DNA from: an uncultured Planctomycetaceae bacterium | Lineage (GTDB): Bacteria > Planctomycetota > Planctomycetia > Pirellulales > Lacipirellulaceae | Direction of reading: 5' to 3' | Length of the DNA: 10,470 nt | Assembly: GCA_937860165.1 (NCBI GenBank) | Contig: CALMBE010000783.1 | Location: 1 to 10,470 of the forward strand | In this document: piece after piece, positions 2 to 10,347 of the stretch | Layout: each line of letters begins with the position of its first letter | How positions within the stretch are numbered: position 1 is the stretch's first letter | Program-made: the position numbers and the translations under genes | The notes under the pieces: generated by a model | Told to the model about the DNA's origin: nothing | The model's database searches: none | What the model saw: only the letters and a program-made list of their open reading frames with translations

Positions 2-913
2 CTTGAGCGGCTCACCAATCCGACCTACTTGGCAGACCTGACCACGGCACGGGTTGCGATGTTCGCCAATGAGCTACGGAAGCCGTACACGATCACCAGA
101 GGAATTGGCAAGAAACAGACCAAGCGAATCGTACAACGCACAGAGGCGAGCGTGGCAAAGCACCTGCGGCACCTGAAAGCCGTAGCACGATGGGCGCACC
201 GACAAGGTTTGCTCTCAAAGCTTCCGACGTTCGATATGCCAAAGAAAGCCAGTGGGGCAACTCGCATGAAGGGGCGGCCAATCACCGGAGAAGAATTTGA
301 CCGGATGCTAGAAGTTGTCCCCAAAGTCGTAGGAGAAGTTGCGGCGGAGTCCTGGCGGTTGCTGCTACAGGGATTGTGGGCGTCAGGATTGCGGCTAGGT
401 GAGGCCCTTGCGATGCGATGGGAACGAAAGCCGGGAAGCCCTAGCGTGATTCTGAATGGCAAGAAAAGCGTTCTAGCGTTCGATGCGGATTCTCAGAAGT
501 CGGGCAAGGTTGAGCTGGTCCCTCTGGCACCGGAAGCCGTGCAACTCTTGGAACCACTGCAGCGCTCGAGCGGCTACGTGTTTGCGGTTCCCCGGGACGT
601 GCGTAAGGTTAGCAAAGTTATCACGGCCATCGGCAAGCAAGCTATGGTTGTTGTGGACCAAGAGCGGGGCAAATTCGCATCCGCACACGACTTGCGAAGA
701 TCGTTCGGTTTTCGTTGGTCACGGCGGGTAAACTACCAGCTATTGAAACAATTGATGCGACATGCGAGTATCTCGACAACGCTGACTTACTATGCCAATC
801 AGGGGGCGGAAGCGAGTGCGGCGGAGTTGTGGAGCGTTTTAGGTAACACTTTAGGTAACACCCCCACCCAGCCCGTTACTTCCCGGGCTGTCGAAACATG
901 GAATTTCAGCTAA
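2..913 (+). CDS. Tyrosine recombinase/integrase (5' end outside window)
   Basis: This is a site-specific DNA recombinase of the phage-integrase family, which cuts and rejoins DNA through a covalent tyrosine-DNA bond. The frame is open to the left edge, so the true start lies outside the window; residue numbers here count from the TTG at 29. An N-terminal SAM-like core-binding region covers about residues 1-75 and the catalytic domain about 85-260. The full catalytic set is visible: Arg122 in SGLRLGEAL, a lysine at 157 or 160, His220 and Arg223 in HDLRR, His245 in MRHASIS, and nucleophile Tyr254 nine residues further on, as in XerD. The domain looks intact. The C-terminal tail contains a GNTLGNT duplication encoded by a perfect 12-bp tandem repeat. 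The gene ends 11 bases before a tRNA-Arg gene on the same strand, and its stop codon forms part of a likely tRNA -10 box. It probably belongs to the mobile region anchored at that tRNA; which element it moves cannot be told from here. Confidence 0.9.
   Translation, partial: LERLTNPTYLADLTTARVAMFANELRKPYTITRGIGKKQTKRIVQRTEASVAKHLRHLKAVARWAHRQGLLSKLPTFDMPKKASGATRMKGRPITGEEFDRMLEVVPKVVGEVAAESWRLLLQGLWASGLRLGEALAMRWERKPGSPSVILNGKKSVLAFDADSQKSGKVELVPLAPEAVQLLEPLQRSSGYVFAVPRDVRKVSKVITAIGKQAMVVVDQERGKFASAHDLRRSFGFRWSRRVNYQLLKQLMRHASISTTLTYYANQGAEASAAELWSVLGNTLGNTPTQPVTSRAVETWNFS
838..861 (+). repeat. Perfect tandem duplication of a 12-mer near the integrase 3' end
   Basis: Two adjacent copies of tttaggtaacac occupy 838-849 and 850-861, inside the integrase coding region, and encode the LGNTLGNT tail. 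They lie about 65-85 bases from the tRNA gene. Integrases of this family often bind short direct repeats (arm sites) beside the crossover site, so these may be arm-type sites, but that role is inferred. Confidence 0.75.
869..890 (+). other. GC-rich hairpin in the integrase tail
   Basis: A 7-bp perfect stem, cagcccg (869-875) with cgggctg (884-890), has an 8-base loop. No T-run follows, so it is not a classical terminator. It sits between the tandem 12-mers and the tRNA promoter and could be structural DNA at the recombination site or an accident of coding sequence. Confidence 0.4.
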
Positions 914-916
914 AAT
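888..916 (+). promoter_or_regulatory. Candidate promoter of the tRNA-Arg gene
   Basis: TAAAAT at 911-916 matches the bacterial -10 consensus at five of six bases and ends eight bases before the first tRNA base. A weak -35 (ctgtcg, 888-893) lies 17 bases upstream. The -10 box includes the integrase stop codon, so the integrase 3' end appears to supply the tRNA promoter. No terminator is visible between the tRNA and the ATPase gene, so this promoter could also feed the cassette. The -35 match is poor. Confidence 0.4.
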
Positions 917-924
917 AACAACAC

Positions 925-998
925 GCGCCCGTAGCTCAGCTGGATAGAGCAACGGATTTCTAATCCGTCGGTCGCAGGTTCGAATCCTGCCGGGCGTA
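925..998 (+). tRNA. trnR: tRNA-Arg (anticodon UCU)
   Basis: A complete cloverleaf can be drawn by eye. The acceptor stem gcgcccg pairs with cgggcgt, with one G-U pair at the end. The D-arm is gctc...gagc. The anticodon stem acgga/tccgt encloses the loop tttctaa, giving anticodon TCT. The T-arm is gcagg/cctgc with loop ttcgaat. The discriminator base is A and the CCA end is not encoded. Length is 74 bases. Its last 31 bases are part of a 37-bp repeat that recurs at 2842-2878, which marks this gene as an integration site. The intact copy lies at the left boundary, as expected when an element restores the tRNA 3' end on insertion. Confidence 0.96.
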
Positions 999-1004
999 GT
1001 TTAT
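968..1004 (+). repeat. Left attachment site copy (tRNA 3' end core, 37 bp)
   Basis: This 37-bp stretch covers the end of the anticodon stem, the variable loop, the T-arm, the acceptor 3' strand, the discriminator and six downstream bases (gtttat). It is identical to 2842-2878; the flanking bases differ on both sides. Identical tRNA 3' ends bracketing foreign genes are the usual result of tyrosine-recombinase integration, so this is interpreted as attL. Confidence 0.92.
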
Positions 1005-1059
1005 TAATTGCAATTTGCGAAACGCACTACAGGATTCGAGAAAAAAATGCTCGGAGATC

Positions 1060-2247
1060 ATGAAATTATTTGAATCAATCACGATAAGAAACCTTCTTTC
1101 GTTTGGACCCGAGAATCCAACCTTGCCATTGGAGAATCTCAATGTCCTTATCGGTCCGAACGGTTCGGGAAAGTCAAATTTACTAGAGGCGATCGCGCTC
1201 TTAAGGAGTACTCGGTATGAAATCAACTCTCCATTAGAATTGAAGTCCGTCATCGCCAGAGGCGGAGGAATTAGAGAGTGGATTTGGAAAGGAAGACCCT
1301 TAGATACGGGCACAGTCGAAACAATACTGGATAATCCTTCGGGCCAACAGCCACTTAGGCATCTGTTAGCGTTGCGACAAGAGAATCAACAACTGCAAAT
1401 TACTGACGAAAGAATCGAAAACAGTTTGCCTAATGAAGGTGAAGAGGACACATATTTTTACTATCGCAGTCAAGGTGGGAATCCGGTTGTGAATCGTGCA
1501 GGTGGCGAAAGTAGAACAATTCAGGCTGCAAAGCACGGGCGTGAACAGACAGCCCTATCCTTTTTGAGAGATCCGATTGCTTATCCGGAACTTTCCTATT
1601 TAGCGGAAAAGTATGAGCGACTCCGCCTGTATCGAGAGTGGAACTTTGGCAATCGAAACTCGCCGTTTCGTATGCCCCAGCAGCCCGATTTGCCCAATGA
1701 GCAACTCAAGGAGGACTTTACGAATTTAGTCATGTTCTTGAATCGCATTCGCCGTTCTCCCCAAACTAAGAAAGCACTACTTTCAGCTTTCATCAATCTC
1801 TATGAAGGCCTTACGGATTTTGATGTAAGCATTGAAGGTGGCACAGTTCAGGTATTTTTCAATGAAGGTGAATTTGTGATCCCTGCAACACGATTGTCAG
1901 AAGGCAGTGTGCGATTTCTCTGCTTGCTGGCGATCCTATGTGACCCCGATCCTCCTCCATTTATTGGCATCGAAGAGCCAGAGATCGGACTTCATCCCGA
2001 TATTCTGCCGAAGGTCGCCGACCTCCTGATTGAGGCCTCGACTCGGACTCAGTTGGTCGTGACTACTCACTCAGACGTGCTTGTTGATGCTCTCTCGGAC
2101 CATCCGGGCGCTGTCGTAGTGTGCGAGAAACACGACGGCCAGACCACGATGAAGCGGCTAGACCCCCGAGAATTGGCCCCCTGGCTGGAAAAGTATCGCC
2201 TTGGCCAATTGTGGTCGAAGGGCGAGCTAGGAGGAAATCGCTGGTGA
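1060..2247 (+). CDS. AAA/ABC-type ATPase (RecF/OLD-like, AAA_21 type)
   Basis: The 395-aa product is a predicted cytoplasmic ATPase of the SMC/RecF/OLD-like branch, probably the sensor or motor of a two-gene conflict system. In order: an N-terminal strand region (LFESITIRNLLSF) typical of RecF-like proteins; Walker A GPNGSGKSN at residues 32-40; a variable middle insert at about 95-245; an ABC signature-like LSEGS at 279-283; Walker B FIGIEEPEIGLHP from 301, with the catalytic Glu pair; and a switch histidine at 337 in VVTTHSDVL. The C-terminal tail LWSKGELGGNRW is characteristic, from memory, of ATPases paired with DUF4276 proteins. ATG 1060 was chosen because GGAG lies just upstream and the protein then begins directly with the conserved strand; an in-frame TTG at 1015 would add 15 residues without a ribosome site. 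The gene overlaps the next by four bases. All ATPase motifs look intact. The exact defence family is uncertain. Confidence 0.9.
   Translation: MKLFESITIRNLLSFGPENPTLPLENLNVLIGPNGSGKSNLLEAIALLRSTRYEINSPLELKSVIARGGGIREWIWKGRPLDTGTVETILDNPSGQQPLRHLLALRQENQQLQITDERIENSLPNEGEEDTYFYYRSQGGNPVVNRAGGESRTIQAAKHGREQTALSFLRDPIAYPELSYLAEKYERLRLYREWNFGNRNSPFRMPQQPDLPNEQLKEDFTNLVMFLNRIRRSPQTKKALLSAFINLYEGLTDFDVSIEGGTVQVFFNEGEFVIPATRLSEGSVRFLCLLAILCDPDPPPFIGIEEPEIGLHPDILPKVADLLIEASTRTQLVVTTHSDVLVDALSDHPGAVVVCEKHDGQTTMKRLDPRELAPWLEKYRLGQLWSKGELGGNRW
2229..2234 (+). promoter_or_regulatory. Ribosome binding site deciding the start of the DUF4276-like gene
   Basis: A perfect AGGAGG lies inside the ATPase 3' end, nine bases before the GTG at 2244. 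It supports that GTG over the in-frame GTG at 2121, which would add 41 residues read from sequence that codes for the ATPase in another frame. Confidence 0.8.
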
Positions 2248-2840
2248 GTGTTACGATCTACATCGAAGGTGGAGGTAGTTCGAAAGAATTGCGCAGTCGT
2301 TGCCGAGAAGGATTTCGAGGACTTCTCGATAAATGCGGTTTAGCGGGACGATCCCCCAAGCTGGTGGCTTGTGGAAGTCGAAATGATGCGTTTGATGACT
2401 TCCAGACAGCATGTCGAACTAGATCGGAGGGCTTTGTTGCCCTACTTGTCGATAGCGAAGACCCATTGAGCGACATCGAGGCTACTTGGTTACACCTAAG
2501 TAATCGTGACGACTGGGAACAGCCATTAGACACTTCCGATGAGCAAGTGCTCTTTATGACCACTTGCATGGAAACCTGGATCGTCGCAGATAGGCTTTCG
2601 CTCAGGGAACATTACGGTCACGAACTTCAAGAGAATGCATTACCTGCTACAAATGAACTCGAAGGCCGCGATCGGCATCAAATTCAGGAGGCCTTAGTTC
2701 GCGCCACTCGAAACTGCTCAAACAGCTATTCCAAGGGGAAGCGATCATTTGCAGTGCTGGGGAAATTGAATCCTGGAGAATTGAAAAAGCATCTGCCGAG
2801 TTTTGTTAGAGTTTGCAGAATCTTGGAAAAGAAGTGCTGA
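2244..2840 (+). CDS. DUF4276-like protein with Toprim-like motifs, partner of the ATPase
   Basis: The 198-aa product is the likely effector of the upstream ATPase. It starts at a GTG overlapping the ATPase stop (gtga), with a strong ribosome site. The N-terminus has a strand followed by an acidic loop, IYIEGGG (Glu8), and a later strand ends in LLVDSEDP (Asp70, Glu72, Asp73). A glutamate after strand 1 and a DxD-like cluster after a later strand is the metal-binding pattern of Toprim nuclease folds, as in OLD and related effectors. METWIVAD at 109-116 and the tail LPSFVRVCRIL fit DUF4276 family members as I remember them. Nuclease activity is inferred from the motif pattern only. The stop codon ends one base before the right attachment repeat, so the gene defines the right edge of the cassette. 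A RloB-type or DUF4435-type partner is the main alternative. Confidence 0.75.
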   Translation: MSVTIYIEGGGSSKELRSRCREGFRGLLDKCGLAGRSPKLVACGSRNDAFDDFQTACRTRSEGFVALLVDSEDPLSDIEATWLHLSNRDDWEQPLDTSDEQVLFMTTCMETWIVADRLSLREHYGHELQENALPATNELEGRDRHQIQEALVRATRNCSNSYSKGKRSFAVLGKLNPGELKKHLPSFVRVCRILEKKC

Positions 2841-2841
2841 A

Positions 2842-2878
2842 TCGGTCGCAGGTTCGAATCCTGCCGGGCGTAGTTTAT
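2842..2878 (+). repeat. Right attachment site copy (37-bp tRNA-Arg 3' fragment)
   Basis: The sequence is identical to 968-1004. It holds only the T-arm and 3' acceptor strand of tRNA-Arg without the 5' half, so it is not a functional tRNA. The last bases contain the stop codon (2875-2877, minus strand) of the C39 peptidase gene. It is interpreted as attR, left when the cassette displaced the original tRNA 3' end. Confidence 0.92.
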
Positions 2879-3636
2879 CTGCCTTGAGAACCTCGATAAA
2901 TCGTGCCGCGACTGGGGACCGTGCTGAGGAACTGTTCGTTGGTTACTCCGAGGCAAATATCGCGTCCACTCACCTTGAGGGGCGACGTGGTGCGGACTTC
3001 TTCGTCGGGCTTGACAACGGCCAGTGCGAGATTTTTCTGCCACTGCTCGGCAAATTCGTTGATGCGAATCCTTAGATTCCCTCGAATTGGGTCCGCCAGG
3101 TAAACGTAGAAGTGATCGGTGCCGCGATACACCACGAAATGTTTGAATTCTTTCTCAGTAATGCCTACCACTAGCGGCGTTTTCGATTCCAGGAGCTTGC
3201 TCACCGATAACTTGGCAACCGCCGCTTGATAGCCCATCTTCACGGCGGCCTTGCGTAAATCGCTCATGGCGAGGCCGTTCTCGATGCGGTCGCGGACTTC
3301 TTCCAACGTCAGTAAATGGTCGAGTACGCCGAGGACTTGATCCTCGGTGACAGAGTCACCAAGGTGATACTTGAGAACGGTTGCGAGTGCTGCTGCACCA
3401 CAGGAATAGTCCCGCTGCTGCATGACGACGTTTCGTTCTTTTAGTTGCTGCCAACTCCAAACATAACGCGATGCAATGTGGCGATCGTCACGAACGGGGG
3501 GGGCTCCCCAGAGTGTATCCGCGCACAGCACACGGAAAGCAACAAAAATCGCCACTAATGTGAACGACATTGAAGACCAATGCAGACGGCGTGTTGCCAA
3601 GAAGCTCGTCTTCATAGGGTTTCCCCAAAGTGTCAT
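2875..3636 (-). CDS. Exported C39-type cysteine peptidase (FapD-like)
   Basis: The 253-aa product is a predicted papain-like cysteine peptidase of family C39, the fold that removes double-glycine leaders in bacteriocin exporters. It is a stand-alone protein, not fused to an ABC transporter. Residues 16-40 form a basic then hydrophobic N-terminus, so it should be exported or anchored facing the periplasm. Catalytic elements are Gln73 (oxyanion), Cys79 in YSCGAAALATVL, His166 in KHFVVYRG and Asp182 in ADPIRGN, all in family order and spacing. The ATG at 3636 overlaps the stop of the upstream barrel gene by one base (taatg), arguing for translational coupling; an internal ATG at 3615, with a G-rich stretch upstream, is an alternative start. 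Pairing with an outer-membrane barrel recalls FapD/FapF of the functional-amyloid pathway. A run of eight G on the plus strand (3496-3503) lies just after the signal region. The stop codon falls inside the attachment repeat. Confidence 0.82.
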   Translation of the reverse strand: MTLWGNPMKTSFLATRRLHWSSMSFTLVAIFVAFRVLCADTLWGAPPVRDDRHIASRYVWSWQQLKERNVVMQQRDYSCGAAALATVLKYHLGDSVTEDQVLGVLDHLLTLEEVRDRIENGLAMSDLRKAAVKMGYQAAVAKLSVSKLLESKTPLVVGITEKEFKHFVVYRGTDHFYVYLADPIRGNLRIRINEFAEQWQKNLALAVVKPDEEVRTTSPLKVSGRDICLGVTNEQFLSTVPSRGTIYRGSQGR

Positions 3637-5261
3637 TAATAAGTCCAGGTGATTCCGAAACGACCGTCGGGGGCGTCATCGGTAACACCAATCTCAGCAA
3701 ATGGCTCGATGAGTCGGCCACAGTTGGCAATCGTAGCCGCGAATCGAAGTGACATGGGCTCGGCAAACGTGCCATCGAAGTTCATGTGGTCGATGCGTGT
3801 GTCGGTGAAGTAAGAGACATTAAAGCGAGTGCTCAAGGTCACATTGGGATTCAAAGCAAAACCCACGCCTAGTTGTCCGCGGAGCTCTTCACCCGGCTGG
3901 ATGTGTTGGGCAAAGTAATCCCTGCCGAATTGATGTCGCCAACCGAGCCCATAGAAAACCACGACGGGGTCAAAGGTATCGATCCAGAGCAAGTCGGTCG
4001 AAAGGCCATAAAAGCCTTGCCCCAAGGCGGGAGCGACGGTCGTCAGCAAGGCATCGGCAAACGGGTTGCCCCCGGAGGGGAAAGTACCCGCCACGGTGAA
4101 GATGGTATCGGTGCAGCGGCCTTGTCCATCGCGGACTAAAAAGGAGATTCCGGTGGTAACATCGCCGACGCCGCCATCGTTGTCACGTTCATCGAATCCG
4201 AACGATGAAAAGTCGGTCTGAGACCACCCAAAGGGAGCCCCGATGAAAAACTGTGCTCGTCGGGTGAGCCCGAACCGGATTTCCAAGGGCATGACCAACT
4301 GGCGTTGCTTGAACTCGGCCTCGACCAAGTTGCTCATGCTGTCGACCACTGTCAGGTCGCTCTCGGCAATTTGGTAGGAAAAGCCGATGTCATATTGCAT
4401 TTCGCCTGGTTCCAACAGGACGGTACTTGCGCGGAGAAATTGAAGGCGATTCGTGGGAGGGGGTTCATCACCCAGCTTCTCGGCGCCTTCCAAGGAATTG
4501 GAGTTGGCGACATCGCTCGGACCTAGAGGGGTGCCAGGACCGAGGCTTTCAGGTAAAGGTGGGACCGGTGGTATCGCTGGATTTGAACCGGCCTGATCAG
4601 AGGCATCGGCTGGAATTGGCACGACACTCTGAGATGCCTGTTCGGGGGGATTCGCAAGTTCTTCTCCCTGCATCAGATTCACGGCATTGGGGTTTGCCTG
4701 GGCCCAACGTTGATCCGAGAAATCCCCATAAATAGGTTCCTGGGCAGGTTCCGGCAATTGTCGCAAATTCCCAGGTGCATTTTGCCAGTGGAGTGGGCCC
4801 ATCAACCCGATGTCTTGGCCAAAGCGATTCGTGCTGGGGAGAGACTGCTGGTCGGCATTCTGTGTAAAGCGTTGAACCGCGGAGTGACTGTTTGGGTTCT
4901 CCCAAAAGAAAGGTCCGATCAGATTGTACCTATCCACGGCTTTGACCGTTGACTTCGAGAGTGCTTGAGCGTTTTCGGAGTGTCGTTCCCAGCCCATGGG
5001 CCCGACAACCCCATCGGTGTTTGAATTGGGAAGTTGATCCGCAGGTCGGGGGACGACCCGGCTGCTCTCGCCCGGTGCGGGATTCTCCCAGTGCAGGGGG
5101 CCGAGCAATCCGCCGCTTGGTTCCGCGGATTGTTGTTGAGAAAATGCCGGGAATTGGAAAAACGATGCTGTGCAAACAGAGAGAACCAACAAGTAGATCC
5201 AGGAATTGCTCGTGCGCCACATTCGAGCCATCCGTTTGTTTTTCACGCTAAGGGTTTTCAT
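3636..5261 (-). CDS. Outer-membrane beta-barrel protein with repeat-bearing N-terminal extension (FapF/MetA-like)
   Basis: The 541-aa product is a predicted outer-membrane channel. Residues 1-41 hold a basic stretch and a hydrophobic signal segment ending near AFS-QQ. Residues 50-165 carry four spaced copies of a G-x-x-G-P-x-x-W-[EQ] motif: GLLGPLHWEN (51), GVVGPMGWER (84), NLIGPFFWEN (113) and GLMGPLHWQN (152). Residues 200-270 are Pro/Ser-rich and probably disordered. From about 272 to the end, alternating polar and hydrophobic strands such as MQYDIGFSYQI, TRRAQFFIGAPFGW and TLSTRFNVSYF form a barrel of the type annotated MetA-pathway of phenol degradation (PF13557). The C-terminus ends in Tyr, as expected for assembly of outer-membrane proteins. 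FapF has the same barrel type with a periplasmic N-terminal domain, and the C39 gene directly follows. The ATG at 5261 has only a weak ribosome site; ATGs at 5231 and 5222 are alternatives. The transported substrate is unknown. Confidence 0.78.
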   Translation of the reverse strand: MKTLSVKNKRMARMWRTSNSWIYLLVLSVCTASFFQFPAFSQQQSAEPSGGLLGPLHWENPAPGESSRVVPRPADQLPNSNTDGVVGPMGWERHSENAQALSKSTVKAVDRYNLIGPFFWENPNSHSAVQRFTQNADQQSLPSTNRFGQDIGLMGPLHWQNAPGNLRQLPEPAQEPIYGDFSDQRWAQANPNAVNLMQGEELANPPEQASQSVVPIPADASDQAGSNPAIPPVPPLPESLGPGTPLGPSDVANSNSLEGAEKLGDEPPPTNRLQFLRASTVLLEPGEMQYDIGFSYQIAESDLTVVDSMSNLVEAEFKQRQLVMPLEIRFGLTRRAQFFIGAPFGWSQTDFSSFGFDERDNDGGVGDVTTGISFLVRDGQGRCTDTIFTVAGTFPSGGNPFADALLTTVAPALGQGFYGLSTDLLWIDTFDPVVVFYGLGWRHQFGRDYFAQHIQPGEELRGQLGVGFALNPNVTLSTRFNVSYFTDTRIDHMNFDGTFAEPMSLRFAATIANCGRLIEPFAEIGVTDDAPDGRFGITWTY

Positions 5262-5571
5262 AGTGGCGACTCTCGACCTTCGGAAGACTACGCTTGGTAT
5301 GTCTGCGATCCATCAAGGGGTTAGCTGCGAAGTGAGCTGTTAGTTCGTTTGTTAATGGCAGGGATTCATTGGGGTTGTGATAGTTACAACGAAAGCTCGG
5401 ATTCGCCATTCATGCTAGTAGTGCTAGTTCTGTCGCTTGTGCAGGTTGGTGCAGCTTATAGCGTTGATCGGCCCCCATCGCTCGGAACTTCATCGTGACC
5501 TGCTGAGCTTCCAGAGGAATAGAATCCGAGGTCCTATTGGAACGGCTAGGTAAACTTTTACAGCACTAAAT

Positions 5572-5597
5572 CCCCGAAAACATGGTTTTCGCAGGGG
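5572..5597. other. Stem-loop in the divergent intergenic region
   Basis: A 7-bp stem, cgaaaac with gttttcg, closes a 3-base loop and is extended by ccc/ggg with a two-base bulge. No T-run follows on either strand, so a terminator is unlikely. It may be a regulatory structure in a leader RNA or a chance feature. Confidence 0.4.
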
Positions 5598-5609
5598 AAG
5601 TAACAATCA

Positions 5610-5622
5610 GTCAAAATTTGAC
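5610..5622. promoter_or_regulatory. 13-bp palindrome, possible operator
   Basis: GTCAAAATTTGAC is symmetric around a central A and overlaps a TTGACG that resembles a -35 box. The placement suits a dimeric regulator binding between two divergent transcription units, but no regulator gene is in the window. Confidence 0.3.
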
Positions 5623-5838
5623 GGTTATTCCAATAGTTCGTGCCACGATTAGATTTGTGTGAATTGACTTCTATCAGGGTCGATCATGCCATAAGAGTCG
5701 TGACGGTAGCTCCTGTAGATCGGATGCTATCAGTCACGCCGGTAATCCTACAGTTGACGGCGGTTCGAATGTCCCAAAGAGCATAGTGCCGGGCATCAGC
5801 AGCCCGATCCCTAAGTCACGATTAGCAAAGGCATAAGC

Positions 5839-7407
5839 ATGAGTACGGGTAAAACGCACTTGAAATTATTAGTTGCATCCCCTGCGGTATTGGGCCTGAT
5901 AGCAAACGTCTTGATTTCGCAGCTTGTTGCCGGGCAATTCGGTGGTTTACCAGCGAGTGTTCCGTTGCTAACGCTACCGCCGGTCGAATCAGAAGTGAGC
6001 GGGACAACTGTAAATACAGCGCGCTCTGCTCCTCAGGCGGCCCCAACTTCCGCAGGCGGGATAGTAAGTGTTCAGCAACCCACCGCAACTAGGAATCCCG
6101 CCGGTAACGAACGCTACGCTGCGGGTAATTTGGTGGATTTAAGAATGGGTACGCTAAATCCTAGTGGCATCGAGAAAGTCGCCTTGAAAACCCCGCTGGA
6201 ACAGTCGGATTATCTGGTGGAAAAAAAGGAATCCACCTCGGAGGCTGCACTGACGGATTTAAGCTCTTATGTGGATTGTTGCGATCCAGGATGCAAAGCA
6301 GCCTTGGGCTGTGATCCGGGATGCGATGCCGCACTGAGTTGTGACCCGGGGTATGGTTGTGGTCCAGCAGCGTCCATGGGGTCAGACTGCTGTTCTTCGC
6401 AGTGCTGCAATGGAAATGGATGCTGCAACGGAGCCTGCTGCAATGCCTGCTGTGGACCTCCTTGCTACTGGTTGGCAGGTGTCGAGGCAACCTTCTTTGG
6501 TCCAAATCTGAACACGGGTTTTGTCAGCTACCAGATCCAAGATCAGTTTCCTGCCGTGGACGTCAATGAGACATTTGGAAGCGAAGATATCGCGATCGAT
6601 GACTTCTATGTCGCACCGCGGTTGTGGTTAGGCGCTCAATATGGCTGCTGGGGAGTCGTGGGGCGTTACTGGCACATGCAGGCTGCCGAAGCGGCCTTCG
6701 ATCCCTTTACCTTTACTCCCCCCGGACCTACCCCCGATTTTGGTTACTTTATCCACAATCGATTTGAAGCTTATACGATTGACCTCGAACTGACTCGGAG
6801 CTTCTGCTGCTACGACACGAAAAACACGGTCTCGTTCGGAACCCGCTATGCCTCGATTTTGCACGACAATGCGTTGAGCGTCGATGGCCAAGTCAACAAC
6901 GGGGCGGGGGGCTTGGGAGTTATCAGCGGCAATGCCCGCTCGAATCGCAGTGCTCATGGCACAGGTATCACGGGATCGTGGCAGGGTCGCCGACCGTTCT
7001 TCTGCAACTCGTGCCTGCACTTGTTCTACGGAACGCGCGGATCAGTGGTCTGGGGCCCGATCTCAAATAGTGTCGAGACAGACACCATCGAAATCACCAC
7101 GGGTGCCACGGCGGGGTCCTACAATGGCGCGGTGACGTTGGTCAACGACGCCCTGTTCATCGTCGAAGGGCAACTTGGTTTGCAAGTCGACTACCGGGTA
7201 GCGTGCTTCCCGGCGGACGCATTCTTCCGGATCGCAGCCGAATACCAGTATTGGAGCGCCGAGGAAGGCACGACGGTCGCGACCTCGTTTGCCGGTTTCG
7301 GCGGACCCAGTCCAGCTCCATTTTCTCAAGGCCAAGCCTTTGCCGCTGCCGATGGCCTTTCGTTGGACTTGATCGGTTTAACCATCGGAACGGGCTTCAC
7401 TTGGTGA
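5839..7407 (+). CDS. Cysteine-rich outer-membrane barrel-like protein (planctomycete type)
   Basis: The 522-aa product is probably exported and embedded in the outer membrane. The start ATG has AAAGG seven bases upstream. Residues 1-32 form a signal peptide (HLKLLVASPAVLGLIANVL). Residues 35-140 are low complexity and Ala/Ser/Thr-rich. Residues 147-209 hold 18 cysteines in 63 residues, arranged as three CDPG[CY] units followed by CC pairs. From about 210 to the end are amphipathic strands rich in Trp, Tyr and Gly, with ArgLeuTrpLeuGly and TyrGlnTyrTrp stretches, ending in GTGFTW; the terminal aromatic residue fits an outer-membrane barrel. The barrel resembles planctomycete proteins annotated as BBP7 or Lpg1974-type pore proteins, without certainty which. 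The gene stands alone, divergent from the barrel/C39 operon, and ends at a strong terminator. The cysteine segment may bind metal or cross-link proteins at the cell surface; this is inferred. Confidence 0.75.
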   Translation: MSTGKTHLKLLVASPAVLGLIANVLISQLVAGQFGGLPASVPLLTLPPVESEVSGTTVNTARSAPQAAPTSAGGIVSVQQPTATRNPAGNERYAAGNLVDLRMGTLNPSGIEKVALKTPLEQSDYLVEKKESTSEAALTDLSSYVDCCDPGCKAALGCDPGCDAALSCDPGYGCGPAASMGSDCCSSQCCNGNGCCNGACCNACCGPPCYWLAGVEATFFGPNLNTGFVSYQIQDQFPAVDVNETFGSEDIAIDDFYVAPRLWLGAQYGCWGVVGRYWHMQAAEAAFDPFTFTPPGPTPDFGYFIHNRFEAYTIDLELTRSFCCYDTKNTVSFGTRYASILHDNALSVDGQVNNGAGGLGVISGNARSNRSAHGTGITGSWQGRRPFFCNSCLHLFYGTRGSVVWGPISNSVETDTIEITTGATAGSYNGAVTLVNDALFIVEGQLGLQVDYRVACFPADAFFRIAAEYQYWSAEEGTTVATSFAGFGGPSPAPFSQGQAFAAADGLSLDLIGLTIGTGFTW

Positions 7408-7554: not shown

Positions 7555-7992
7555 CTAGAACGACATTGCCGAGGAAAAACCACCTGCATACACGCGGGTC
7601 GATTTGGTCGTGGTTACCGACTTGGTAATTCCATCGATGGTAACGACTTCGCTGTGGACTTTGATCAGGCCGGCTTCCGAGAAGTTGGCACCTGAAGCAG
7701 CGTATTGACCCTTGGCGAAGTAGACGTTGACCGTTCCGGCGGCGGCGCCACCGTGGTGACCGTGCTTATCGCCGATGACAGCGAACGAACCCCCTGCGGC
7801 AATGGAAACCGAAGGACTGGGGGCATAGCCCATGCCTCGAACTTCAGCGGCGACCGTGTCTGAGACTACCGTCGCGCCGCCCAGGCCGAGTGCATTGAGG
7901 GTTTTCGATGGGATGAGTCCCTCTGCGGCCTGAGAAAGACTTCCCGCGGCCAGGACTGCCAGACAAGCTCCACACAAAATACTTTTTTTCAT
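7555..7992 (-). CDS. Small secreted protein with leader-like VRGxGY motif (paralogue A)
   Basis: The 145-aa product is of unknown function. ATG 7992 was chosen because GGAG lies nine bases upstream and the product then begins with a clear Sec signal peptide (MKKSILCGACLAVLAAGSLSQA, residues 1-22); longer in-frame readings add a non-signal N-terminus. Residues 30-56 read SKTLNALGLGGAT, then VVSDTVAAEVRGMGY. That segment lines up with double-glycine bacteriocin leaders (LSxxELxxVxGG) except that the second glycine is replaced. The mature part is rich in Gly, Ala, Ser and Val with a short His cluster (HGHH, 77-80), and ends AGGFSSAMSF. It is clearly homologous to the divergent gene at 8493, with identical spacing through residue 56. 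It may be a secreted structural or fibre-type protein processed by a C39 peptidase, but no function is established. Confidence 0.82.
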   Translation of the reverse strand: MKKSILCGACLAVLAAGSLSQAAEGLIPSKTLNALGLGGATVVSDTVAAEVRGMGYAPSPSVSIAAGGSFAVIGDKHGHHGGAAAGTVNVYFAKGQYAASGANFSEAGLIKVHSEVVTIDGITKSVTTTKSTRVYAGGFSSAMSF

Positions 7993-8099
7993 AGCTGAGA
8001 ACTCCAAGTGGAAAAGGATGGAAGGTACGGCATGGCTCGCAAACAGTTTGGAGGTTTTCAGCGACCATGCAGTGGGTGCTCTTTGCACTCACAGCCTTC

Positions 8100-8492: not shown

Positions 8493-8912
8493 ATGAAGAA
8501 AGTTTTGTCGATGTTCGCCGTGGCTTTGCTGCTGGCTGCTTCGTCCGCTGCCCAAGCTGCTGACGGAGTCATGAGTTCTGCCACCCTGTCGGCCCTGGGC
8601 CTCAGTGGAGCAACCCTTGTTTCCGATAGCGAAGCCAGCTTGGTTCGCGGCCATGGCTATCACCCTAATTCCATTGCCATCGCGGCAGGTGGTTCGTTCG
8701 CCCATGTGGGCGGCCCGGGCGCAGGGGCTGGTAGCGTGAATGTCTACTTTGCAGCCGGGCAGCATTTTGCCGGGGGAGCCAATCTCTCGGTCGCTGGCAA
8801 GTCGGTCACACACACGAAAGAGATAGGCTACGGCCACCATACGGTTACCGTGAGCCACACTAAATCGGTTACGGTCTTCGCCGGTGGTTTCTCCGCTGCC
8901 GCCGCTTTCTAA
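8493..8912 (+). CDS. Small secreted protein with leader-like VRGxGY motif (paralogue B)
   Basis: The 139-aa product is a paralogue of the divergent gene at 7992. AGGAG at 8481-8485 sits seven bases before the chosen ATG; an in-frame upstream start at 8445 lacks a signal peptide at its N-terminus. Residues 1-23 are a Sec signal peptide (MKKVLSMFAVALLLAASSAA...). Residues 30-56 are ATLSALGLSGAT followed by LVSDSEASLVRGHGY, matching paralogue A and resembling a double-glycine-type leader with Gly-His in place of Gly-Gly. The rest is Gly/Ala-rich with short Val/Thr/Tyr stretches such as SVNVYFAAGQ and HTVTVSHTKSVTVFAGG, and ends in Phe. Such composition fits a beta-rich secreted or surface protein, possibly fibre-forming. 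It is monocistronic, with a terminator hairpin just downstream. Function is unknown. Confidence 0.85.
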   Translation: MKKVLSMFAVALLLAASSAAQAADGVMSSATLSALGLSGATLVSDSEASLVRGHGYHPNSIAIAAGGSFAHVGGPGAGAGSVNVYFAAGQHFAGGANLSVAGKSVTHTKEIGYGHHTVTVSHTKSVTVFAGGFSAAAAF

Positions 8913-8980: not shown

Positions 8981-9234
8981 TGATTCTTCGTGAATTTCGA
9001 GGGGTGGAAACGGTTATCAAATCGACTCGTAACAAGTCCTGCATCCGTAACCGTTCACGGGTCGCGCATAACCTAACCGGTACCTGAACAGTCAATACGG
9101 ATATTTCCGAAGTCCTTGCGTGCTATCCGTGTACGGCCCGATGACTGCTCGCCTTGCCACCTGAATTTGCAGCACTAGATTTCGGTCAAGGAACCAAATA
9201 CCCCTTGTTTTGTAGGCTCCCGACCCGTGAACGG
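8981..9234. other. Non-coding gap between paralogue B and the phosphate transporter gene
   Basis: No gene is supported here. Most of the gap is the interior and left arm of an inverted-repeat element (9047-9238). A minus-strand reading frame at 9092-9334 runs through it into the transporter gene in another frame and shows no family features. Confidence 0.55.
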
Positions 9235-9238
9235 TTAC
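9047..9238. repeat. 192-bp segment with perfect 18-bp terminal inverted repeats
   Basis: gtaaccgttcacgggtcg at 9047-9064 is the exact reverse complement of 9221-9238. The 156 bp between carry no recognised gene. The right arm covers the stop codon of the phosphate transporter gene. The layout suits a small non-autonomous inverted-repeat element. No clear target-site duplication flanks it, although agtcc occurs near both ends. Other copies in the genome are needed to call it mobile. Confidence 0.6.
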
Positions 9239-10347
9239 AGTCCAGTGATAATCGTGTAGCTTCCCGCCCCTAATGCGCCTCCCAACGGCAGCGTTGTCAC
9301 CCAGGCTCCCAGGATCTTCAGGACTGTGTTCCAACGTCCTTCGCCGGTGATGATTCCGATGCCGAATAGTCCTCCGCAGCTTACATGCGTCGTAGAAACT
9401 GGCATACCCAAGCGGCTGGCACCAATGACGATTGCACTTGTCACAAGATTGCTTGTGAAGCCTTGGCCCGGATTCATGGGAGTAATGCGCTGACTCATCG
9501 TATCCGCAACGCGACGTGCATTGAGAATGCCGCCCAAGGCAATTGCCAGGCCAACAATCGCCATTCCGGCGAGACCATTGAACAGGGGTAGTATCAGTAA
9601 TAGCGAAGCGATCTTGGGGGTGTCGTTAAGACCCCGGGCGAAACTCACAGCACCCGCTGAGAGAAAATGCAATCCATCCAAGATGGATTTGACTTCGTAA
9701 CCCCAGACTTCTCCGCGGTAGATATTTTGGCAGGTCACTCGATCACCGATCTGAACTGTTAAGAATGCTGCTCGTTCCATGGCGATGCATTGGTCGGACG
9801 AGGGAATAGTTTCCAGGACCCGATTCCCCGCGCAGAGGCATGTTTCGGCAGAGATCCCCAGCCTCTGCCGAGCTAATCGGAAAACTGGATAAGCAATGAT
9901 TGACGCCAATACAGCCAAGAGCGGGCTCAGGACTAGGGGCAGAAAGAAGTTGCCTCCCAAACGGTCCAGCCGGATAGATGAATTCGCCGCCAAGCCAGCA
10001 CCCACAAGTGCCCCAAGCAAGCTATGGGTTGTTGAAACAGGCATGCCGAGGCGTGTGGCAAGTAACACGGCCAAACCAGCACCAAGTGCCACGGCAGCCG
10101 TGTAATCCGCATTTGCGACGAGGGCATCATCGACTAAGCCCTTGCCGCTAAAGCTCTTAAGTAGTTCACCTGCTAACAGGACAGCCATGAACGAACCGAG
10201 GAGGGTCGTCACCGTCGCCCATGCGAGAGCACGCGAGTAATTCGTCGTGTTACTACCGAATAAGGTAGCAACTCCTTTGAAATTATCGTTAGCCCCGTTA
10301 GAGTAGGCCAAGAGCACGACTGCCAGTGTTACAAACGTTGTCAACAT
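9235..10347 (-). CDS. PiT-family inorganic phosphate transporter
   Basis: The 370-aa inner-membrane carrier (PF01384) takes up phosphate with protons, sodium or as a metal-phosphate complex. From ATG 10347, the first membrane helix carries NGANDNFKG (GAND at 18-21), and the second half repeats the signature as RGLNDTPKIA (GLND at 239-242). The motif RLGMPVSTTH occurs in each half (about 99-108 and 312-321), showing the internal duplication of the family. A hydrophilic central loop at about 157-225 contains four cysteines (CLC, then two singles). About ten hydrophobic segments are visible. Starts at TTG 10389 or GTG 10362 are possible, since no ATG has a good ribosome site; ATG 10347 places the first helix at the N-terminus, as usual. 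The stop codon is supplied by the right arm of an inverted repeat. No PhoU-like partner lies in the window on the downstream side. Length is within the family's shorter range. Confidence 0.9.
   Translation of the reverse strand: MLTTFVTLAVVLLAYSNGANDNFKGVATLFGSNTTNYSRALAWATVTTLLGSFMAVLLAGELLKSFSGKGLVDDALVANADYTAAVALGAGLAVLLATRLGMPVSTTHSLLGALVGAGLAANSSIRLDRLGGNFFLPLVLSPLLAVLASIIAYPVFRLARQRLGISAETCLCAGNRVLETIPSSDQCIAMERAAFLTVQIGDRVTCQNIYRGEVWGYEVKSILDGLHFLSAGAVSFARGLNDTPKIASLLLILPLFNGLAGMAIVGLAIALGGILNARRVADTMSQRITPMNPGQGFTSNLVTSAIVIGASRLGMPVSTTHVSCGGLFGIGIITGEGRWNTVLKILGAWVTTLPLGGALGAGSYTIITGL

Follow-up and report, generated by a model that had tools for sequence, protein, structure and literature searches.

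A HEC-01 gene pair enclosed by copies of a tRNA-Arg(TCT) 3' end: a possible small two-gene insertion beside an integrase-bearing island

Stretches of DNA that lie between att-like repeats and carry no integrase have been described before. Cis-mobilizable elements (CIMEs) are defined as having lost the genes for integration and transfer while keeping attL and attR (PMC5704250), and Dehalococcoides carries 15 ssrA islands that are devoid of an integration module (PMC3146451). Here we describe a locus of this general kind in an uncultured Planctomycetaceae bacterium, in a stretch of 10,470 nucleotides (the window) that is the entire contig C783 in a draft assembly of 828 contigs (87% complete). 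In the window, two adjacent HEC-01 genes, hecA and hecB, are enclosed by two copies of the 3' end of a tRNA-Arg(TCT) gene, the other side of which is occupied by an integrase-bearing insertion, here called island B. We read the hecAB segment as a discrete insertion at the tRNA 3' end, independent of island B. As to its nature, we tentatively favour a reading, rated somewhat short of an even chance, in which two separate insertions flank the tRNA gene and the HEC-01 segment is a small two-gene unit that inserts at gene ends.

The hecAB segment and its boundaries

A repeat scan of the window revealed two identical 37-nt direct copies, which are its sole direct repeat of at least 16 nt; an exact pair of 37-mers within 10 kb is not a chance occurrence. 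The features at and between these copies are as follows.

925-998, plus strand: intact tRNA-Arg(TCT) gene (Rfam tRNA match, 72.8 bits)
968-1004, plus strand: left 37-bp repeat, from tRNA position 44 through 6 nt beyond the tRNA
1022-1039, minus strand: inverted partial copy of the T-arm and acceptor end of the tRNA (18 nt at 83%)
1060-2247, plus strand: hecA, HEC-01A ATPase (AAA_21; PF13304, 9.6e-39; PADLOC PDLC04177, 3.7e-158)
2244-2840, plus strand: hecB, HEC-01B (DUF4276) with a predicted TOPRIM-like fold (PF14103, 1.5e-10; PADLOC PDLC04201, 8.3e-70; model and structural matches)
2842-2878, plus strand: right 37-bp repeat, a detached tRNA 3' fragment (repeat scan and match to the tRNA query)

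The left copy lies inside the intact tRNA gene, and the right copy is a fragment of it, because only the 3' part matches the tRNA query; the alignment covers positions 44-80 alone of the 80-nt query (tRNA plus 6 nt). This confinement of the match rules out a decayed full tRNA gene at the right end, a possibility raised in the original prediction, which was an earlier description of this DNA made from its letters. The same description was accurate on the repeats, their coordinates and their distances from the genes, as judged by the repeat scan and the open reading frames of the window, and it placed the boundaries rightly at a tRNA-Arg 3' end. The repeats enclose hecA and hecB only; both genes are complete, they overlap by 4 nt, and the segment between the repeats measures 1.84 kb. 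From the left repeat to the hecA ATG there are 55 nt (an ATG at 1047 lies earlier and is out of frame), and a single nucleotide separates the hecB TGA from the right repeat, the end of which overlaps the stop codon of a C39 peptidase gene (2875-3636, minus strand). With att-like repeats at both ends and no integrase or transfer genes inside, the segment has the composition of a CIME; no remnant of a larger parent element was found, and the neighbour's family uses a different crossover point. In 62 contigs of this incomplete genome, detached fragments were found for 1 of 22 tRNA genes, namely this tRNA-Arg.

It is to be noted that the inverted copy at 1022-1039 sits just inside the left end of the segment and could pair with the T-arm of the tRNA itself to give a hairpin. 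Its best local match was equalled by 25 of 3000 shuffles, and the folding z-score was -3.4 for 975-1045, yet -1.1 for 968-1060.

The assignment to HEC-01 rests on PADLOC, in which the adjacent genes match both the HEC-01A and the HEC-01B model, and in other genomes the two genes were neighbours at 76 of the 80 loci. The C-terminus of HecB is natural, since 31 of 75 homologues share exactly the same end length. HecB is predicted to adopt a TOPRIM-like fold in which the acidic residues expected of an OLD-type nuclease are present, and its best structural matches are the C-terminal regions of OLD proteins and 8ux9_A of the PARIS complex; a search of the PDB with the HecB profile returned no meaningful match. 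In Pfam, HecB matches DUF4276 only, and not DUF4435, the family of the PARIS partner AriB. Judged from sequence, hecAB is probably a candidate defence pair, consisting of an OLD/PARIS-like ATPase and a TOPRIM-fold partner. By analogy with OLD and PARIS, HecA would sense infection and HecB would cut nucleic acid, thereby stopping the phage. HEC is listed among Hma-embedded candidates in a table of PMC10855318, and a literature search by the name HEC-01 turned up no defence paper among the hits listed. A sigma-70 scan of positions 700-3100 found no promoter, 2.0 matches being expected by chance; since no match lies near the leader, the pair may be transcribed from the tRNA promoter.

Gene-end copies around other HEC-01 pairs

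The enclosure of the pair by a copied gene end has parallels elsewhere. For the 70 usable of 76 HEC-01 pairs, the 600 nt upstream of hecA were compared with the 600 nt downstream of hecB for direct homology (E <= 1e-4), and 488 segments of the same length in the same loci served as controls. Flanking copies were found around 6 of the 70 pairs versus 2 of the 488 control segments (Fisher 7e-5), both control hits coming from a single locus, L154; when L154 was left out, the counts were 5/69 versus 0/480 (Fisher 3e-5). A first control based on exact repeats of at least 16 nt had given 5 of 69 pairs versus 9 of 4488 sliding segments, all nine from two loci. Flanking copies around HEC-01 pairs are too frequent for chance. 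Two of them are clear copies of gene starts: in a Chloroflexi metagenome-assembled genome (MAG; L124) the start of the following urocanase gene is copied (123 nt at 88.6%), and in a Methanosarcinaceae MAG (L146) an aminotransferase start is copied together with its upstream region (269 nt at 96.3%). A third, in Cyanobium (L155), is probably of the same kind, with a copy around the hsdR start (62 nt at 80.6%). In these three loci and the window, the copied gene is co-oriented with the pair, and hecA and hecB are the sole long genes between the copies, over 1.8-2.2 kb. Repeats linked to tRNAs (exact, at least 18 nt, up to 4 kb on each side) were present at 0 of 80 HEC-01 loci, in a scan where some contigs were shorter than 4 kb and a tRNA fragment lacking a nearby full tRNA would be missed; repeats unlinked to tRNAs occurred in L124, L130, L131, L146, L154, L155 and L197, and L166 contained runs of N. 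The locus L154, on a Dehalococcoidia chromosome, has a 39-nt copy at 92% (7955-7993 and 9774-9812) that leaves gaps of 4 nt to hecA and 8 nt to hecB, as tight as in the window.

Under the reading that we favour, the HEC-01 unit would arrive with a copy of the gene end that it joins, and one recombination event would keep the target complete, with a piece of its end stranded beyond the pair. Such an anatomy would result if a circular DNA molecule made up of hecAB and a gene-end fragment entered by one crossover. That exchange may be ordinary homologous recombination or the work of an unseen recombinase acting in trans, and not of the island B integrase at the site that it normally uses; the circle, the exchange and the former mobility of the segment are what we infer from the arrangement. 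That hecAB recurs on its own between copies of gene ends is what now places the two-gene unit ahead of a pruned island remnant, which had been the earlier favourite. The original prediction of a minimal defence cassette survives in part: the genes form a candidate defence pair, and the idea of a unit has gained support from the excess of flank copies; the neighbouring integrase as its mover finds no support. A wider proposition, that HEC-01 pairs in general are small mobile units of ~2 kb with two genes and no integrase, inserting at gene ends with a substitute end that keeps the target whole, is in our judgment unlikely. Such units would travel either by recombination via the gene end that they bring along or with the help of a recombinase as yet unseen, and they would be missed by island surveys that require an integrase or a length of 2 kb.

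Several observations weigh against the two-gene unit. No flank copies are seen around 64 of 70 other pairs, and the 8 usable further loci obtained by searching 392 genomes of the phylum add no case. L130 is a dispersed palindromic repeat, L132 amounts to 34 nt at 85%, L154 is a 39-nt match in a repeat-rich locus, the one that yielded the two control hits, and L155 is a weak case whose left-hand reading diverges after ~6 codons; the gene-end cases alone come to 3/70 versus 2/488 (Fisher 0.016). The flank scan was post hoc, its controls being random segments and not other defence genes, and the window copies a tRNA 3' end whereas the other cases copy 5' ends of protein genes. In addition, no empty site sharing both flanks was found in relatives, and the right flanks of six congeners differ.

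The distribution of the pair shows that the locus is not a fixed feature of the lineage. At E <= 1e-60, hecA was detected in 2 of 59 genomes, own included, and in the second, G010, it stands at another site with no flanking repeats. Conservation of the pair and its repeats in all relatives, which the original prediction had named as the outcome to look for against mobility, is thereby ruled out. The empty-site comparison that it had recommended produced no clean empty site: six congeners (G006, G008, G009, G010, G012, G013) have an intact tRNA-Arg(TCT) with no 3' copy in the 6-15 kb downstream, but none shares both flanks with the window. Across 26 tRNA-Arg loci of relatives (25 TCT and 1 CCT, one of them with just 23 nt downstream), a 3' copy was seen at one, in G023; a longer fetch added G028. 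Phages and plasmids gave no hecA match at 1e-20, and viral contigs contained neither an exact 33-nt core nor an integrase relative, in a search suited to close relatives only. To the right of the segment, a cluster of genes for the C39 peptidase, a porin-like protein and a Cys-rich protein (window 2875-7407) also occurs in the congeners G004 and G010, at a distance from tRNA-Arg, which indicates that in one lineage the right flank has changed place. Relatives of the G010 right-flank genes, ~44-52% alike, are found on the genome's own contig C494, with no tRNA fragment there.

Island B and the rival explanations

The other side of the tRNA gene carries the following features.

29-913, plus strand: tyrosine integrase of island B (PF00589, 2.5e-12), its N-terminus cut by the contig edge
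838-861, plus strand: arm-like doublet of island B, a 12-nt direct doublet 95 nt from the anticodon loop
925-966, plus strand: tRNA 5' half, of which a detached copy lies on contig C227 (L086 2495-2536, minus strand)

The integrase gene lies outside the repeats, its end 11 nt short of the tRNA, and is no part of the cassette; the earlier statement that no integrase is present holds true inside the repeats and overlooked this gene immediately upstream. Homologues of the integrase occur in 40 of 59 genomes, own included. Thirty integrase loci, the window among them, were compared, one for each genome. In 22 of these a tRNA 3' end faces the 3' end of the integrase, and 7 have no tRNA within the short stretch fetched; a tRNA 5' end facing the integrase is found in the window only. 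A scan of the whole genome for the arm doublet (12-bp period, up to 3 mismatches) located it in four places, on C227, in the window, on C659 and on C804, and the reversed control gave 0. The gap from doublet to anticodon loop is 92 nt on C227 and 95 nt in the window, and the two gaps of the classical G023 island are 105 and 97 nt. Because the doublets are symmetrical about the anticodon loop of the intact tRNA, this loop is taken as the recombined core for this integrase.

The detached 5' half on C227 matches over 42 nt at 97.6%, or over 46 nt at 97.8% when 4 nt upstream are included. It is flanked on one side by a cyclase gene (PF00211), a homologue of which (70.6%) also lies 5' of the intact tRNA in G010, and on the other side by a helix-turn-helix gene and a DUF3854 gene. 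Contig C227 and the left part of the window most plausibly represent opposite ends of a single island carrying a 5' half, a linkage that we infer across separate contigs. Island B thus has the make-up of a 5'-fragment tRNA island, namely an intact tRNA and a displaced 5' half, with its ends on separate contigs. It would have crossed over in the anticodon loop, supplying a new 5' half and leaving the old one on C227 beside the cyclase. Islands with 5' fragments are a minority in Islander (159/3919; PMC4383910). In Archaea, pTN3-like integrases use the tRNA 5' half, the tRNA then being expressed from the integrase promoter, a situation given as rare in bacteria in the cited part of PMC8371274.

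Further integrase genes with the doublet, on C659 (L087) and C804 (L088), stand at tRNA-Arg(ACG) and tRNA-Ser in the classical orientation, the C659 copy having an internal stop within the matched stretch. Genome G025 (L089 9818-9858 and L115 9281-10084) contains a second orphan tRNA-Arg(TCT) 5' half, near phage-like genes with a small serine recombinase; its intact tRNA lies elsewhere and has on its 5' side an integrase-like N-terminus, recognised by eye and with no Pfam match, that is split by a transposase gene.

The proximity of the integrase, which lies outside the repeats, is the one point in favour of a cassette shifted in trans by the neighbour in the manner of an integron. This explanation is highly improbable. 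A convergent tRNA is present in 20 of the 21 stretches that carry related integrases, and a right-end repeat was found in 9 of the 20; in the remaining 11, the island may extend beyond the fetched length or be too diverged. In all nine mapped islands, which measure 8.4-18.6 kb, the repeats start at tRNA positions 30-33, and none of the nine has a second 3' copy. By contrast, the 37-bp repeats of the window begin only after the anticodon loop, at tRNA position 44, and window positions 990 to 2900 contain no arm motif, so that the cassette lacks both the repeat start of the neighbour's family and its arm doublets ~100 nt inside the ends. Since the repeats start at 44 and arms are absent, the neighbour cannot have moved the cassette through the repeats as they stand, and the claim of mobilisation by it is not supported. 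Nor was any further cassette found at the 22 own tRNAs. A T-loop crossover, which is contained in the repeats, is possible by a different recombinase; Islander places 1836 islands in its T-loop crossover class (PMC4383910).

The pruned remnant, in effect a CIME formed by decay, is doubtful while deserving serious thought. Here a tRNA-Arg island would have lost its integrase and both arm regions, with selection keeping the defence genes, and a right-hand deletion would have joined hecB to the interior of the former core, so that the right copy starts at 44 instead of ~32. It is in keeping with the 30-33 cores of related islands at this and other tRNAs, with the definition of CIMEs and with the ssrA islands of Dehalococcoides mentioned at the outset; it requires two deletions with end points 55 nt ahead of the gene pair and 1 nt behind it, and it leaves aside that other HEC-01 pairs also stand alone between gene-end copies. 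A local rearrangement or a join made in the draft assembly, placing a tRNA fragment behind ordinary genes of no mobile origin, would suit the 828 contigs, a right flank unlike that of G010 and the many HEC-01 pairs without flanking copies. We regard it as improbable, for the copy runs from the tRNA interior to 6 nt past its end, the usual form of a tRNA-island core, and related genes in other genomes show comparable structures. Slightly less credible still is one element that brought its own tRNA, after the manner of tRNA-dependent lysogeny, in which the host tRNA was split between positions 42 and 44, the intact tRNA-Arg and hecAB are cargo, and the two fragments are what is left of the broken host gene. 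These fragments are complementary without overlap, the 5' one reaching to 966 and the 3' one beginning at 968, and phages that disrupt a tRNA (core ~8-17 bp) and supply their own copy are known (PMC10865867). However, the symmetrical doublets mark the anticodon loop of the intact tRNA as the recombined core, the two outer junctions show no common core, and the integrase would sit ~2 kb from its attachment site.

Elsewhere in the window, a perfect 18-nt inverted repeat (9047-9064 and 9221-9238, 156 nt apart) lies in a gene-poor stretch and may represent the ends of a small non-coding element. Two small secreted-looking proteins (7555-7989, minus strand; 8493-8912, plus strand) are alike by eye and have no Pfam match.

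Comparison with known systems

Should two-gene defence pairs indeed move on their own between copies of gene ends, surveys of islands overlook some of the traffic in immune genes, and the search for the recombinase turns into a specific problem that can be pursued at several loci. If the segment is a pruned remnant only, selection has kept a compact defence pair after the decay of an island. The tRNA occupied on both sides, with island B carrying a 5' half within a clade of 3'-half integrases, is in addition a testable case of an integrase lineage switching sides.

Likeness to integron cassettes, suggested in the original prediction, was not borne out: there is one cassette and no array, fragments occur at one of the 22 own tRNAs, and tRNA-linked repeats at none of the 80 HEC-01 loci. 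The integrase scored 25.1 bits against the XerA/integron-integrase model, for which the cut-off is 220, and no cassette array beside an integron integrase is present. As regards the genes, PARIS (AriA/AriB) and the OLD nucleases share the combination of an ATPase and a TOPRIM-fold partner (PMC9122126); HecB, however, belongs to DUF4276 and the PARIS partner to DUF4435, and hecA and hecB are two separate genes, unlike OLD.

As regards the anatomy, Islander islands (crossover classes A and J; PMC4383910) have their ends marked by a tRNA and a displaced fragment, as here; since Islander, as described in the cited part, rejects candidates below 2 kb or without an integrase, the cassette would be invisible to it. 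The phages of tRNA-dependent lysogeny (PMC10865867), in which the tRNA is split and the element supplies an intact copy, share a short common core at both junctions, and none is visible here. In the additive flexible islands of Methylophilaceae (PMC10872708), short copies of a tRNA-Lys 3' end recur likewise, and the islands range from 330 bp to 42 kb and from 1 to 63 genes; many stand at one tRNA there, whereas a single one is found here, and the genes are not the same. In anatomy the segment is of the kind of CIMEs and the Dehalococcoides ssrA islands (PMC5704250, PMC3146451), in which an integrase-less stretch likewise lies between copies of an RNA-gene 3' end, with further elements close by that share the target. 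Those elements, as the cited portions describe them, stand in tandem on the same side and share the same core, whereas here the integrase-bearing island is on the other side of the tRNA and crosses over at another point, and the segment has two genes only in its 1.84 kb. What is distinctive about the present locus is the content trimmed to two genes, a tRNA that has an occupant on each side and two crossover points, and the parallels at the starts of protein genes.

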